From Nitrosarchaeum sp. (GTDB lineage: Archaea; Thermoproteota; Nitrososphaeria; Nitrososphaerales; Nitrosopumilaceae), in the NCBI GenBank assembly GCA_023264875.1, contig JAHFUX010000002.1, forward strand, positions 1-64,000: a stretch of DNA of 64,000 nucleotides, written 5' to 3'. This document shows positions 56,928-63,633 of the stretch, one piece after another (positions within the stretch are counted from its first letter, which is position 1; each line of letters opens with the position of its first letter). The notes below the pieces were generated by a model. That model made no database searches and was not told the origin of the DNA. It was given only the letters and a program-made list of their open reading frames with translations. The translations under genes were made by a program, and so were the position numbers.

Positions 56928-57025
56928 GCCGGGGTCGCCTAGCCTGGTAGGGCGCGCGCCTGGAAATAATTTACCATAAAGCGCGTTCTCGCAAGGGAAC
57001 GGGAGTTCAAATCTCCCTCCCGGCG
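56928..57025 (+). tRNA. tRNA-Ser(GGA) with a 14-nt intron
   Basis: Acceptor GCCGGGG pairs with TCCCGGC, discriminator G, and CCA is not encoded. The D arm is GCCT...GGGC, the anticodon stem CGCGC/GCGCG, and a long variable arm (GTTCTCGCAAGGGAAC) marks a class II tRNA. The loop CTGGAA reads anticodon GGA, followed by about 14 extra bases (ATAATTTACCATAA) at the canonical 37/38 intron site. T arm GGGAG-TTCAAAT-CTCCC. Confidence 0.93.
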
Positions 57026-59269: not shown

Positions 59270-59282
59270 TTAACATTGTTAA
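59270..59282. promoter_or_regulatory. TTAACAWTGTTAA palindrome, site 1
   Basis: TTAACATTGTTAA, a near-perfect palindrome, ends 35 nt before the ATG of the 148-aa gene at 59318. In a leaderless archaeal promoter this is just upstream of BRE/TATA. Sites 2 and 3 share the spacing. Confidence 0.6.
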
Positions 59283-59317
59283 TTGAAAGTTATTAGTCAC
59301 CATGAACAAACTAGGAT

Positions 59318-59764
59318 ATGGATAACACAACACATCTGATTTCAGAAAAGATTGAAACAATTGAGAATGACAATAAAGATCAAGCAATTTCTATATGTGA
59401 AATAATGAAAAACAATACATCAGATATAATCCAGAAACTAGAAGTAGAAATTCCAATTCTTTTTCAAAACTATTCAGATCTATATTCTAGATATCTTCAT
59501 TCAATACAAGATCTGTTTGGAGTTTGCCATTTAGCGGAAAAACAATATTTTGACAAGATACATGTTGATCAAAAGGTCTTGAAATCCTTTGATGAGTATT
59601 GGAAATTCATGACAAATATTGCTGAATCACAAATTAATTTATCTACCAATTTTCTAAAATCTTATGTCCAGTTTAGATTATCGTTTATTGATTCTTGGGA
59701 TGAATATGCTCATGCTGCAATGAACACATATGCCAAAATGTTATCTCGATTTATTCAAGAATAA
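59318..59764 (+). CDS. Hypothetical helical protein, 148 aa
   Basis: Entirely helical and amphipathic, with no signal peptide: IENDNKDQAISICEIMKN, then aromatic-rich helices (YSDLYSRYLHSIQDLFG, FIDSWDEYAHAAMNTYAKML). The overall look is phasin-like, meaning lipid- or granule-surface-binding helices, but that is only resemblance. Its promoter carries palindrome site 1, shared with the C2H2 gene, so they may be co-regulated. Confidence 0.6.
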   Translation: MDNTTHLISEKIETIENDNKDQAISICEIMKNNTSDIIQKLEVEIPILFQNYSDLYSRYLHSIQDLFGVCHLAEKQYFDKIHVDQKVLKSFDEYWKFMTNIAESQINLSTNFLKSYVQFRLSFIDSWDEYAHAAMNTYAKMLSRFIQE

Positions 59765-59805
59765 AAGTTATTTCTGGTGGCAATTTTTTTTAATTTAATT
59801 TCAAT

Positions 59806-59973
59806 TTACCTAGTCTTTCTTAGGATGACCTGCATTAGCACTTCTTTTGTATATTCTATTCCATGTTCCTCATCAGTATGCTTGCCAAATTGAGATATTA
59901 CTGAATCAACTTCTCCATAAGCTACAAATTCACACTCAAAACCATAATCACTACAACAAAGTTTTATTGTCAT
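59806..59973 (-). CDS. DUF1059-like small protein, 55 aa
   Basis: Too short for the ORF track. Translation begins MTIKLCCSDYGFECEFVAYGEVD, followed by a HTDEEHG segment. The Cys/GF-x-C/H-x4-H arrangement matches the DUF1059 protein at 35084 (FKCKDVGFDCGFVAKG). It lies 40 bp downstream of the C2H2 gene on the same strand, so they probably form an operon. Likely metal-binding; function unknown. Confidence 0.75.
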   Translation of the reverse strand: MTIKLCCSDYGFECEFVAYGEVDSVISQFGKHTDEEHGIEYTKEVLMQVILRKTR

Positions 59974-60013
59974 GCTAAATTCCTATAATGATTACATTTT
60001 TGCTCTGTCATTT

Positions 60014-60196
60014 CTAGTGTTCTTTTTCACGTTTTGGTTTTGAGTGGGCTTTAATCATATGTTTCTTTGTTCTTTCTGCATCCGTAAATTCCATTTTACA
60101 TATATTACATTTATTTGTAAATTGAGGATTTTTTCTAAATACATTTTTCAGGCTAGGTATGCCTATTTTCTTTGAAATTTGTATTTTAGATTCCAT
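60014..60196 (-). CDS. C2H2 zinc-finger mini-protein, 60 aa
   Basis: One classical C2H2 finger, Cys30-x2-Cys33-x12-His46-x4-His51 (CNICKMEF...HMIKAH), flanked by basic segments (KNVFRKNP before, HSKPKREKEH after). Single-finger proteins of this size in archaea can be DNA-binding regulators. Palindrome site 2 ends 35 nt before its ATG, which could mean autoregulation or control by a neighbour. Confidence 0.78.
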   Translation of the reverse strand: MESKIQISKKIGIPSLKNVFRKNPQFTNKCNICKMEFTDAERTKKHMIKAHSKPKREKEH

Positions 60197-60231
60197 GCCA
60201 TATCAAAAAATTATTCATATTAAAACATCAC

Positions 60232-60244
60232 TTAACAATGTTAC
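60232..60244. promoter_or_regulatory. TTAACAWTGTTAA palindrome, site 2
   Basis: TTAACAATGTTA (12 of 13 positions) lies 35 nt upstream of the C2H2 gene ATG (60196, minus strand). On its other side it also lies about 37 nt before the left arm of the inverted repeat. Confidence 0.6.
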
Positions 60245-60276
60245 CTTGAATTCGATACTGTGAACTTATTTAATAT

Positions 60277-60407
60277 AAAATATGCAGAAGCATATCTAGG
60301 AAAAACATTATCTGTGTCTTGGGCAGTAAATGAAAACTAGGTGATTTCCAGATTCATACATTCTGTAGTTTTTCCTTGGAGTAGATATGTTTGCTTCTGC
60401 ATATTTT
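60277..60407. repeat. 131-bp imperfect inverted repeat
   Basis: The left arm starts with aaaatatgcagaagca, which recurs exactly in reverse complement as the end of the right arm. Pairing continues imperfectly through tatct and ggaaaaac. The arms are about 30 and 40 nt, with about 61 nt between. It could be a structured RNA, a small MITE-like element or an inverted duplication. Confidence 0.75.
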
Positions 60408-60437
60408 GTATTTTTGATTTTAGTATTTACGGCATGC

Positions 60438-60450
60438 TTAACATTGTTAA
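60438..60450. promoter_or_regulatory. TTAACAWTGTTAA palindrome, site 3
   Basis: TTAACATTGTTAA, identical to site 1. On the minus strand it ends 35 nt before an ATG (60402) that opens a 21-codon frame within the inverted repeat. Confidence 0.6.
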
Positions 60451-61185: not shown

Positions 61186-61452
61186 ATGCCAGAGGAAATT
61201 CATTATGTAACAATGGCAATACATCTAATTGTAGGATTTGTACTTGTGTTTTTGGCTGCAAGAGCATTTAAGAAAACAAAATATCCACCAATGGCATTAC
61301 TCGTGCTTGGATTTTCTTTAATTGTTATAGGCGATACAATAATTGGAGATGTAGTAGAATTTCTGGAGCAAGGTATTTTTGGTGAAATCTTAGAGGAAGG
61401 CGTTGAAATTGCAGGTTTTATTGTTTTAATATTAGCGGTGAAACGAAGCTGA
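61186..61452 (+). CDS. Three-helix membrane protein, 88 aa
   Basis: Helices at about 8-27, 36-54 and 69-85, with a conserved-looking acidic loop (GDVVEFLEQGIFGEILEEG). Its length and pairing with a winged-helix gene recall small archaeal membrane proteins (DUF7521-like) found next to ArsR-type regulators; this is not certain. The stop is one base from the regulator start, so they form one unit. Confidence 0.65.
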   Translation: MPEEIHYVTMAIHLIVGFVLVFLAARAFKKTKYPPMALLVLGFSLIVIGDTIIGDVVEFLEQGIFGEILEEGVEIAGFIVLILAVKRS

Positions 61453-61453
61453 A

Positions 61454-61792
61454 ATGGACGATGCAAGTGAGATCTTCTCCACAATATCTGATGAACAGAA
61501 TCGAGAAATAATAAAACTAGTCTCAAAGACAGAACTTACCATTCAACAAATTTCCAATATGCTAAACATCCCATTATCTACTACATATCGGAAAACAAGA
61601 AAATTAGAGGAATTAAAGATAATCAAGAAAACTAAAGTAATTCGAACACTTGAAGGTCTTGATGAAAGTTATTACAAAAATTGGATATCTGAAATTGTAA
61701 TTACCTATAGAGATGGAGAACTATCCTACAAATTAGAACATGTAAAGATTGAAGATAAAATTGTAAGACTTTGGCAAAAGTTTTCGGAATAA
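61454..61792 (+). CDS. Winged-helix transcription regulator, ArsR-like
   Basis: 112 residues. DDASEIFSTISDEQNREIIKLVSKTELTIQQISNMLNIPLSTTYRKTRKLEELKII is a winged HTH of the ArsR/TrmB type. The C-terminal half is short and lacks obvious metal ligands. It is translationally linked to the upstream membrane protein. Two matching palindromes (61124 and 61797) flank the operon, so autoregulation is plausible. Confidence 0.82.
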   Translation: MDDASEIFSTISDEQNREIIKLVSKTELTIQQISNMLNIPLSTTYRKTRKLEELKIIKKTKVIRTLEGLDESYYKNWISEIVITYRDGELSYKLEHVKIEDKIVRLWQKFSE

Positions 61793-62212: not shown

Positions 62213-62518
62213 ATGACTGGAAAAAGTTACCGAGATAAAATTTACATTATAAAAGATATCATTAGTCTTCTTACTGAATATGGCCAGCTAAATCAAACAA
62301 CCCTTATCAGCTACAGTGGCCTGAATCTAAAAAAACATAAACATATTCTTGATACTCTAGAATCGCGAGGATTTATCTCAAAATTAATTTCAGAAAATGA
62401 CAAGCGTCCAGTTACAATTTACAAAGCCACAAATAAAGGAATTGAGTTTTGTCAAACAATAATAGCACCATATGAAGAATTGTTTCCTAGAAAATCTAAC
62501 TCAAATCAGAATAACTAG
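62213..62518 (+). CDS. Winged-helix regulator, archaeal HTH_45-like
   Basis: 101 residues. KIYIIKDIISLLTEYGQLNQTTLISYSGLNLKKHKHILDTLESRGFISKL forms the HTH, followed by a wing (KRPVTIYKATNKGIEF). This matches the small archaeal regulators with transcription-unit-sized single domains (for example ArnR-like). It overlaps the convergent membrane gene by 4 bp. Confidence 0.8.
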   Translation: MTGKSYRDKIYIIKDIISLLTEYGQLNQTTLISYSGLNLKKHKHILDTLESRGFISKLISENDKRPVTIYKATNKGIEFCQTIIAPYEELFPRKSNSNQNN

Positions 62519-62913
62519 GGGCCTTGTTCTTCATCTAGATTAAACTCTGAGGAGATCTGATTATCCATCTGATCTTTTCTTTGAATATATCTAGAATATT
62601 TTTTGTTCCAAGATTTGAGCATTAAGTATTGATGTATCCCTAACACAAGCCAAGATATTGAAATTATAATTATTACAACTAGTGATATGGCAAGAAAGAT
62701 TCCAAATTCATCATATTCATCCAATATGAAAAAAAAGTGTGGATGAAGAATCAGGTATAATGAAAGGCCTATTGCCAGTGGTGCCAAAATTAACGCAGAT
62801 ATTGATATTCCTAACAGAGTTTTTCCTATATGATTTATCTTCTCGATAAATCCATCCATTACTTCAATTATGCTAAAACGTGATTGTGAGTCAGAATTTT
62901 CTATATTTGGCAT
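62515..62913 (-). CDS. Two-helix membrane protein, 132 aa
   Basis: Two hydrophobic helices (about 33-55 and 70-92) follow a polar N-terminus, with a charged cytoplasmic tail (MLKSWNKKYSRYIQRKDQMD). No family recognised. It is 28 bp downstream of the cupredoxin gene and may be co-transcribed with it. Confidence 0.6.
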   Translation of the reverse strand: MPNIENSDSQSRFSIIEVMDGFIEKINHIGKTLLGISISALILAPLAIGLSLYLILHPHFFFILDEYDEFGIFLAISLVVIIIISISWLVLGIHQYLMLKSWNKKYSRYIQRKDQMDNQISSEFNLDEEQGP

Positions 62914-62941: not shown

Positions 62942-63406
62942 TCATTTTACTATAAAAGTTCCGCTCATTTCAGGATGTAGTGTACAATGAAACGTAAATT
63001 CACCTGTCTTGTCAGCAATAAATGTAATTGATTGGGATTCAAAATAACTCAAGTCTTTTGTGTGAACATTAAATTCATCCATATTCAAATTATGTTTTTG
63101 ATTATCTTGGTTAATTATGTGAAAAGAAATCAGCTCACCACTACTTACTGAAACTATTGGTTTCTTACTTGGAGTAAAACTATTTTTTCCACCTTTTGTT
63201 GACGATAATGCAAACATAGGACCGTGTTGTGTTGGTATTGATTTTACATAAAAGTTTGCTGGTGCTCCAAACACAGGAGATGTTGCATTTACAGGAATCA
63301 TGGAATTAACAACATAATATCCGCCAACTGAACAAAGCACAACAATGCCTGTGATTGTAAGTATTGTATTTCTTCCTAATTTAATCTGGTGTTTTTGTTT
63401 TACCAA
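62942..63406 (-). CDS. Membrane-anchored cupredoxin
   Basis: 154 residues. An N-terminal helix (about 15-37) is followed by a cupredoxin beta sandwich. Type 1 copper ligands are visible: His105 (QKHNLN), Cys141, His144 and Met147 in FHCTLHPEMSG. It is likely to carry electrons or copper outside the membrane; ammonia-oxidising archaea use many such plastocyanin-like proteins instead of cytochromes c. Partners are not in this window. Confidence 0.88.
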   Translation of the reverse strand: MVKQKHQIKLGRNTILTITGIVVLCSVGGYYVVNSMIPVNATSPVFGAPANFYVKSIPTQHGPMFALSSTKGGKNSFTPSKKPIVSVSSGELISFHIINQDNQKHNLNMDEFNVHTKDLSYFESQSITFIADKTGEFTFHCTLHPEMSGTFIVK

Positions 63407-63633
63407 TCGATTGCATGATATTTGCCACTATTTAGACAATGATGAACAAAGTTAAGTATATTATAAAAACAAAAAATCAAAACCTCATTGAGCACAAATG
63501 TATTGCACTTTATTACATCAAAACATCTATCAATTCTGTAATTTAAAAAAATATGGAAAAATTCTACCTAATTCTTTTATAATCGTACTATGAGAAAAAA
63601 CAATTAATAACAAAATACGTTATGTGATAAAAA

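Follow-up and report, generated by a model that had tools for sequence, protein, structure and literature searches.

The closest described system is that of TFB-RF1 (PF1088) in Pyrococcus and the Thermococcales, where a weak BRE is preceded at a conserved distance by a 13-nt palindrome, TCTGAANTTCAGA, and where activation and recruitment of TFB have been proven (PMC5937170). In Methanococcus maripaludis, the archaeal activator EarA has its sites immediately upstream of the BRE, four of them, each of 6 bp, at one operon (PMC5512572). The locus described here lies in a window of 64,000 nt, the whole stretch of DNA that was analysed. The relatives that carry its C2H2 protein belong to Nitrosarchaeum and Nitrosopumilus, which assigns the window to an ammonia-oxidising archaeon of their family. 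Like the TFB-RF1 system, it combines a 13-nt palindrome at a conserved distance just upstream of BRE and TATA with few target promoters, a regulator gene linked to a target and phylogenetic conservation. It differs in its motif (TTAACAWTGTTAA) and in its lineage, and we do not claim membership of the TFB-RF1 regulon; recruitment of TFB is a proposal here, and no structured RNA or zinc-finger mini-proteins, such as those found here, are described among the targets of TFB-RF1. As with EarA, the putative operator sits immediately upstream of the BRE, but it consists of one palindrome used at several promoters.

Dimers of MarR proteins bind AT-rich palindromes. The regulator that we propose for this locus, HTH_45, has a predicted fold that matches those of MarR regulators (HpaR 7el3, HsmR 8zde and OhrR 1z9c). 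Unlike them it is short (101 aa), is 15–26% identical, lacks the usual N-terminal dimer helices and would work in the context of archaeal TBP and TFB. It falls into the same Pfam family as Sso10a (PF14947; NCBIfam NF053610, E 7.9e-9), but with 35.4 bits it stays below the NF053610 cut-off of 60; moreover, Sso10a carries the name of a chromatin protein, whereas we propose that HTH_45 recognises a specific sequence. We found no operator, regulon or regulatory RNA described for these archaea in the open-access full text that we searched, Nitrosopumilus in combination with palindrome, MarR, DUF1059 and C2H2 included. Circuits of this kind are known from archaea; the motif, the regulator family, the lineage and the RNA have, to the extent of these searches, not been described.

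Palindromes at a constant distance from start codons

The sequence-only reading had reported three palindromes within 1.2 kb of the window, each exactly 35 nt from an ATG. This is correct, with one qualification: the 1.2 kb contain two exact copies of the consensus TTAACAWTGTTAA, and the middle copy has one mismatch (Table 1). A further palindrome, the fourth in Table 1, had been overlooked. In the whole 1.33-Mb genome, the exact form occurs only at the two sites in the window. The genome holds six other one-mismatch sites; five of these are within long open frames, and none has an ATG at a distance of 35 nt, so that a scatter of the motif unrelated to start codons is rejected. When three window positions were drawn at random, they shared some gap to an ATG (0–150 nt) about 1% of the time and the gap of 35 nt in 0 of 20,000 draws. 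The genome-unique exact copies, the off-register one-mismatch sites elsewhere and the random triples together indicate that the spacing of the three sites is not due to chance. Two-mismatch matches, counted in the window alone, number 8, compared with 8.5 in shuffled sequence. The data from the genome and from relatives derive from pattern searches and from the stretches around the matches.

Table 1 Features of the locus and their coordinates in the window
Feature	Position	Strand	Details
Palindrome 1, TTAACATTGTTAA	59270..59282	no strand	exact; 35 nt before ATG 59318(+)
TATA-like box TTATTA	59290..59295	+	8–13 nt past palindrome 1; orthologues have GTTAATAA or CTAAATAC at the same position
148-aa helical protein	59318..59764	+	target; predicted model of two long helices, low confidence (pLDDT 70)
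DUF1059 protein	59806..59973	-	directly downstream of the C2H2 gene; PF06348, E 1.6e-5
C2H2-A mini zinc-finger protein, 60 aa	60014..60196	-	target; palindrome 2 upstream
TATA-like box TTTAATAT	60217..60224	-	8–15 nt past palindrome 2
Palindrome 2, TTAACAATGTTAC	60232..60244	no strand	one mismatch; 35 nt before C2H2-A ATG 60196(-)
Structured RNA, beginning as the 21-codon frame	60272..60402	-	5' end 35 nt past palindrome 3
TATA-like box TAAATA	60424..60429	-	9–14 nt past palindrome 3; CTAAATA conserved
Palindrome 3, TTAACATTGTTAA	60438..60450	no strand	exact; 35 nt before RNA start, ATG 60402(-)
HTH_45 (PF14947), MarR-like winged-helix protein	62213..62518	+	proposed regulator, from Pfam, predicted fold and co-occurrence
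132-aa membrane protein	62515..62913	-	conserved neighbour of HTH_45 and cupredoxin
Membrane-anchored cupredoxin-like protein	62942..63406	-	target; TTG start; PF13473, E 6.7e-11
TATA-like box TAAATA	63429..63434	-	9–14 nt past palindrome 4 (CTAAATA, same register)
Palindrome 4, TTAACTTTGTTCA	63443..63455	-	2 mismatches; 36 nt before cupredoxin TTG

The sites are kept in related genomes. Palindrome 1 is found before the 148-aa gene in six relatives, orthologues of palindrome 2 mostly have the exact form at the same place, and palindrome 4 is kept in a Nitrosarchaeum MAG from Lake Fargette (L196). All 11 C2H2 orthologues examined, of which the most distant is 69% identical and which include a second genus, have a palindrome of no or one mismatch whose end is separated from the start codon by exactly 35 nt. 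The window together with 62 stretches from relatives supplied 145 exact sites, or 290 strand-views; ATG was counted 54 times at gap 35 and 44 times at gap 36, the median over all offsets being 6. These counts overstate independence, because several sites are related by descent. The register is common to six unrelated target classes (gaps of 35/36 nt: C2H2-A 22/1, C2H2-B 8/1, 34-aa acidic peptide 9/3, 148-aa protein 6/1, RNA 3/19; DUF1059, 2 at 36). The initial observation stands; the pattern is conserved and extends beyond what was first reported.

In every class a TATA-like box follows 7–15 nt past the palindrome, in one register. Its sequence is CTAAATAC at the RNA and the cupredoxin, TTATAAT or TTTAATAT at C2H2-A, CTAAAAG at C2H2-B, TTTATTA at the 34-aa peptide, GTTAATAA at the 148-aa protein and TATATTA at DUF1059. 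A TATA box about 20–25 nt ahead of the start codon is typical of leaderless archaeal promoters. The boxes found here lie at this distance, thereby placing the palindrome directly upstream of BRE and TATA. The earlier suggestion of a regulatory site at a fixed distance just upstream of BRE/TATA, serving a small regulon, is thus well supported by the conserved spacing and the TATA-like boxes.

The proposed regulator and the direction of control

HTH_45 scores 31.1 bits against PF14947, above the cut-off of 25.5 (E 2.4e-7), and is also above the cut-off of the MarR family PF01047. Its predicted model consists of a winged helix and a long C-terminal helix (pLDDT 81). The best matches in the PDB are MarR proteins, DNA complexes included (HpaR 7el3, E 1.8e-4; HsmR 8zde), with TM-scores to the query of 0.6–0.68 and a match probability of 1.00.

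We consider it probable that a small Nitrosopumilaceae regulon has TTAACAwTGTTAA as its operator, most likely bound by a homodimer of HTH_45 at leaderless promoters. Counted from the start, the operator would cover roughly -48 to -36, with the BRE and the TATA-like box following immediately downstream, and transcripts would begin at or beside the start codon. The constant distance of 35 or 36 nt would fix the orientation of the dimer relative to TBP and TFB, on which it would act from a fixed face, most simply activating by recruitment at weak promoters. Its targets would be the cupredoxin/membrane-protein pair, DUF1059, one or two mini C2H2 proteins, the 34-aa acidic peptide, the 148-aa protein and an RNA of ~100–140 nt with its 5' end at the mapped 'ATG'.

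The position of the site and its constant phase make us lean towards an activator, as does the precedent of TFB-RF1, the nearest available; in our analysis, activation appears about twice as likely as repression. Most MarR proteins act as repressors, and there is an appreciable, if smaller, chance that HTH_45 represses from the same operator until a ligand or oxidation releases it, as is typical of that family. The site is near enough to the BRE to hinder TFB, and repressors too can bind upstream of TATA. However, the palindrome is found upstream of the TATA-like box and not over it, and its 35/36 register is constant over unrelated genes, a constancy that steric repression does not need.

Under the preferred reading, of an HTH_45 dimer activating from a fixed position, the regulator, its exact site, the promoter geometry and the targets, including a new RNA family, can all be named from sequence. 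This makes fixed-distance control at leaderless archaeal promoters readily testable, and offers an entry point to the role of one-finger C2H2 proteins in archaea. The core of cupredoxin, membrane protein and DUF1059 leads us to speculate about a copper- or redox-linked response.

The 148-aa protein matched no Pfam family. DUF1059 has its own palindrome in other genomes, at a gap of 35–37 nt. Several further small proteins were observed in relatives. C2H2-B, a second one-finger mini-protein of 51 aa (CPxCxxxFxSLxxYMSHIK...ELKWSFR), occurs 35 nt past a palindrome in genomes of genera g12 and g4 (L096:5524-5676, L119:7167-7319 and L121:4581-4733), with none seen in the window. A conserved acidic peptide of ~34 aa (..DWWRLEKxQIGRxRF), without a known family, lies 34–36 nt past a palindrome at L095, L117-L122, L130, L132, L134, L135, L141 and L150. 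A small double zinc-ribbon-like protein without a Pfam match (SxxCKGICxxxxxxxxxxxxRYxxGQKRCxxC...CPCCGxxLRxKSR) recurs in the module (L118:6047-6265, L119:8226-8417, L130:5820-6011 and L182:1474-1668).

Distribution across genomes and the candidate DNA-binding partner

Genera are labelled g1, g4, g9, g12, g17, g20 and g41, and the 118 genomes counted here are those of g1, g4 and g12. Among the relatives that encode the C2H2 protein is Ca. Nitrosopumilus salaria BD31, where one contig carries the cluster; in the closest relative, a Nitrosarchaeum of Lake Fargette (G010), the C2H2 protein is 97% identical. C2H2-A (E<1e-15) is carried by 30 of the 118 genomes. These 30 hold 154 exact palindromes (mean 5.1 each), compared with 23 in the remaining 88 (mean 0.26 each). 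Of the 30, 29 have HTH_45 (E<1e-30), which none of the 88 has, and 29 have the RNA; G004 and G017, which account for the two gaps, are fragmented assemblies. Palindrome clusters, C2H2, RNA and HTH_45 share practically the same 30 genomes, a co-occurrence that is partly shared descent, the locus being inherited or moved as a block.

In g17, g20 and g41, HTH_45 is present with palindromes of no or one mismatch in its neighbourhood, usually 36–37 nt from the TTG, GTG or ATG of the cupredoxin, 35–36 nt from DUF1059 and ~34–40 nt from HTH_45 itself. No C2H2-A orthologue from these genera is among the matches listed, which comprise weak C2H2 paralogues only (E ~1e-11 to 1e-4). Because genera without C2H2-A keep the palindrome beside HTH_45 and the cupredoxin or DUF1059, the comparison points to the MarR-like HTH_45 as the ligand, and not to the C2H2 protein, which would thus be a target more than a ligand. 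The sequence-only reading had named the C2H2 protein or a nearby winged-helix protein. The second option is supported for HTH_45 at 62213; the first, the C2H2 protein, is not supported. Nor is the other winged-helix protein, at 61454: it does not track the motif, being missing from most palindrome-rich g4 and g12 genomes and present in the palindrome-free G009. The latter region (61186-61792) encodes a small HTH_5 winged helix preceded by a DUF7521 membrane protein, and HTH_5 is spread family-wide independently of the palindrome.

It is unlikely that C2H2-A itself binds the operator and autoregulates its own cluster. It is the most constant target, tracks the palindrome clusters perfectly in three genera and has an invariant basic tail, KxHSKPKR, that could bind nucleic acid, but a 13-bp symmetric site is rarely specified by one C2H2 finger, whereas a winged-helix dimer is well matched to a perfect palindrome, and g17, g20 and g41 keep palindrome promoters by HTH_45. 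As for HTH_45, its gene in the window has no palindrome in its own promoter, so that any autoregulation is not universal.

The ancestral core is HTH_45 with the 132-aa membrane protein and the cupredoxin; C2H2-A, C2H2-B, the 34-aa peptide and the RNA joined it later, unless they were lost in other lineages. An observation that speaks against the proposed reading comes from g9, where HTH_45 is present, exact palindromes are absent nearby and only a three-mismatch version precedes the cupredoxin, which suggests an altered operator in this genus. At one such cupredoxin promoter (L188:1225), TAAATA is kept in register and the palindrome has drifted to TAAACTTTGGTAA.

A constitutive promoter element, or a recombination or transposition mark of a mobile cluster, would agree with a cluster present or absent as a block and with a multi-copy RNA with inverted ends, but is very improbable, given the lone palindromes 35–37 nt before isolated genes elsewhere (L079-L081, L089, L090 and L125), the absence of target duplications and transposases at the loci read, and the lack of the palindrome in module-free genomes, unlike a general promoter element.

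A structured RNA at the third site

The third start codon had been described as that of a 21-codon frame. The frame does not encode a conserved protein: it is open for 21–50 codons, is shifted by indels and is not conserved past the first codons. DNA conservation is instead concentrated in two pairing arms and a loop, and folding exceeds that of dinucleotide shuffles (z -5.3 for a 236-nt region; mean z -3.7 with 19 of 22 copies below -2). On these grounds we prefer to interpret the 21-codon frame as the 5' end of a probable RNA gene. A real small protein (MQKQ..., 21 codons or more) is correspondingly hard to credit, even though every copy begins with ATGCAGA(A/G)GC or nearly so, since frame lengths vary and no peptide is conserved.

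In the window, the RNA has a closing stem ATGCAGAAGC/GCTTCTGCAT and an inner stem AGGAAAAAC/GTTTTTCCT. Copies are ~100–140 nt long and sometimes multiple in a genome; they start with ATGCAGAAGC, close with GCTTCTGCAT and have CTACTCCAA inside, then the second stem and then the loop (C)TAGTTTTCATTTACTGCC..AAGACAC. The second stem differs between copies (AGAGAAAA/TTTTCTCT, AGGAAATATG/CATATTTCCT and GGAAAGAT/ATCTTTCC), with pairing kept by eye in a per-sequence helix search, which was used in place of alignment-based folding; the closing stem is nearly invariant. RNAalifold on the MAFFT alignment recovered the closing stem alone. Column-wise covariation in the same alignment is not clearly above shuffles, because there is little variation in the closing stem and the alignment of the inner stem is poor.

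Rfam 15 gave no match up to E 1 in the RNA of the window. A covariance model detected the RNA at E below 1e-6 in 29 genomes, with three copies each in G002 (C4:32935, C5:9101 and C15:100641) and G159 (C29, C86 and C128), most of them with their own palindrome promoter. A palindrome of no or one mismatch lies 33–37 nt upstream in 27 of 30 RNA loci, and two more, L213 and L235, have it at 35 and 36 nt; the weak match in G125 is the only one of the 30 loci with no palindrome upstream. The matches in G125, G209 and G242 (E 2e-4 to 8e-3) were taken as chance. A miniature transposon, considered because of the inverted ends of the RNA, was rejected, the palindrome and TATA-like box being found in every copy at one end only and in register, and no target duplication being seen.

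The function of the RNA may lie in a wider cascade. It is conceivable, if doubtful, that in a previously undescribed circuit of ammonia-oxidising archaea the MarR-like dimer switches on, through the locked operator, both a new family of structured RNA and the one-finger C2H2 proteins, and that RNA and fingers cooperate in trans. The basic KAHSKPKR tail, for example, might bind the RNA or the targets of the RNA, giving a transcription-factor/sRNA/zinc-finger cascade.

Apart from the palindrome module, positions 56928-57025 (+) of the window contain a 98-nt Rfam tRNA match (40.5 bits) that was missed by ARAGORN and is possibly an intron-containing tRNA gene.
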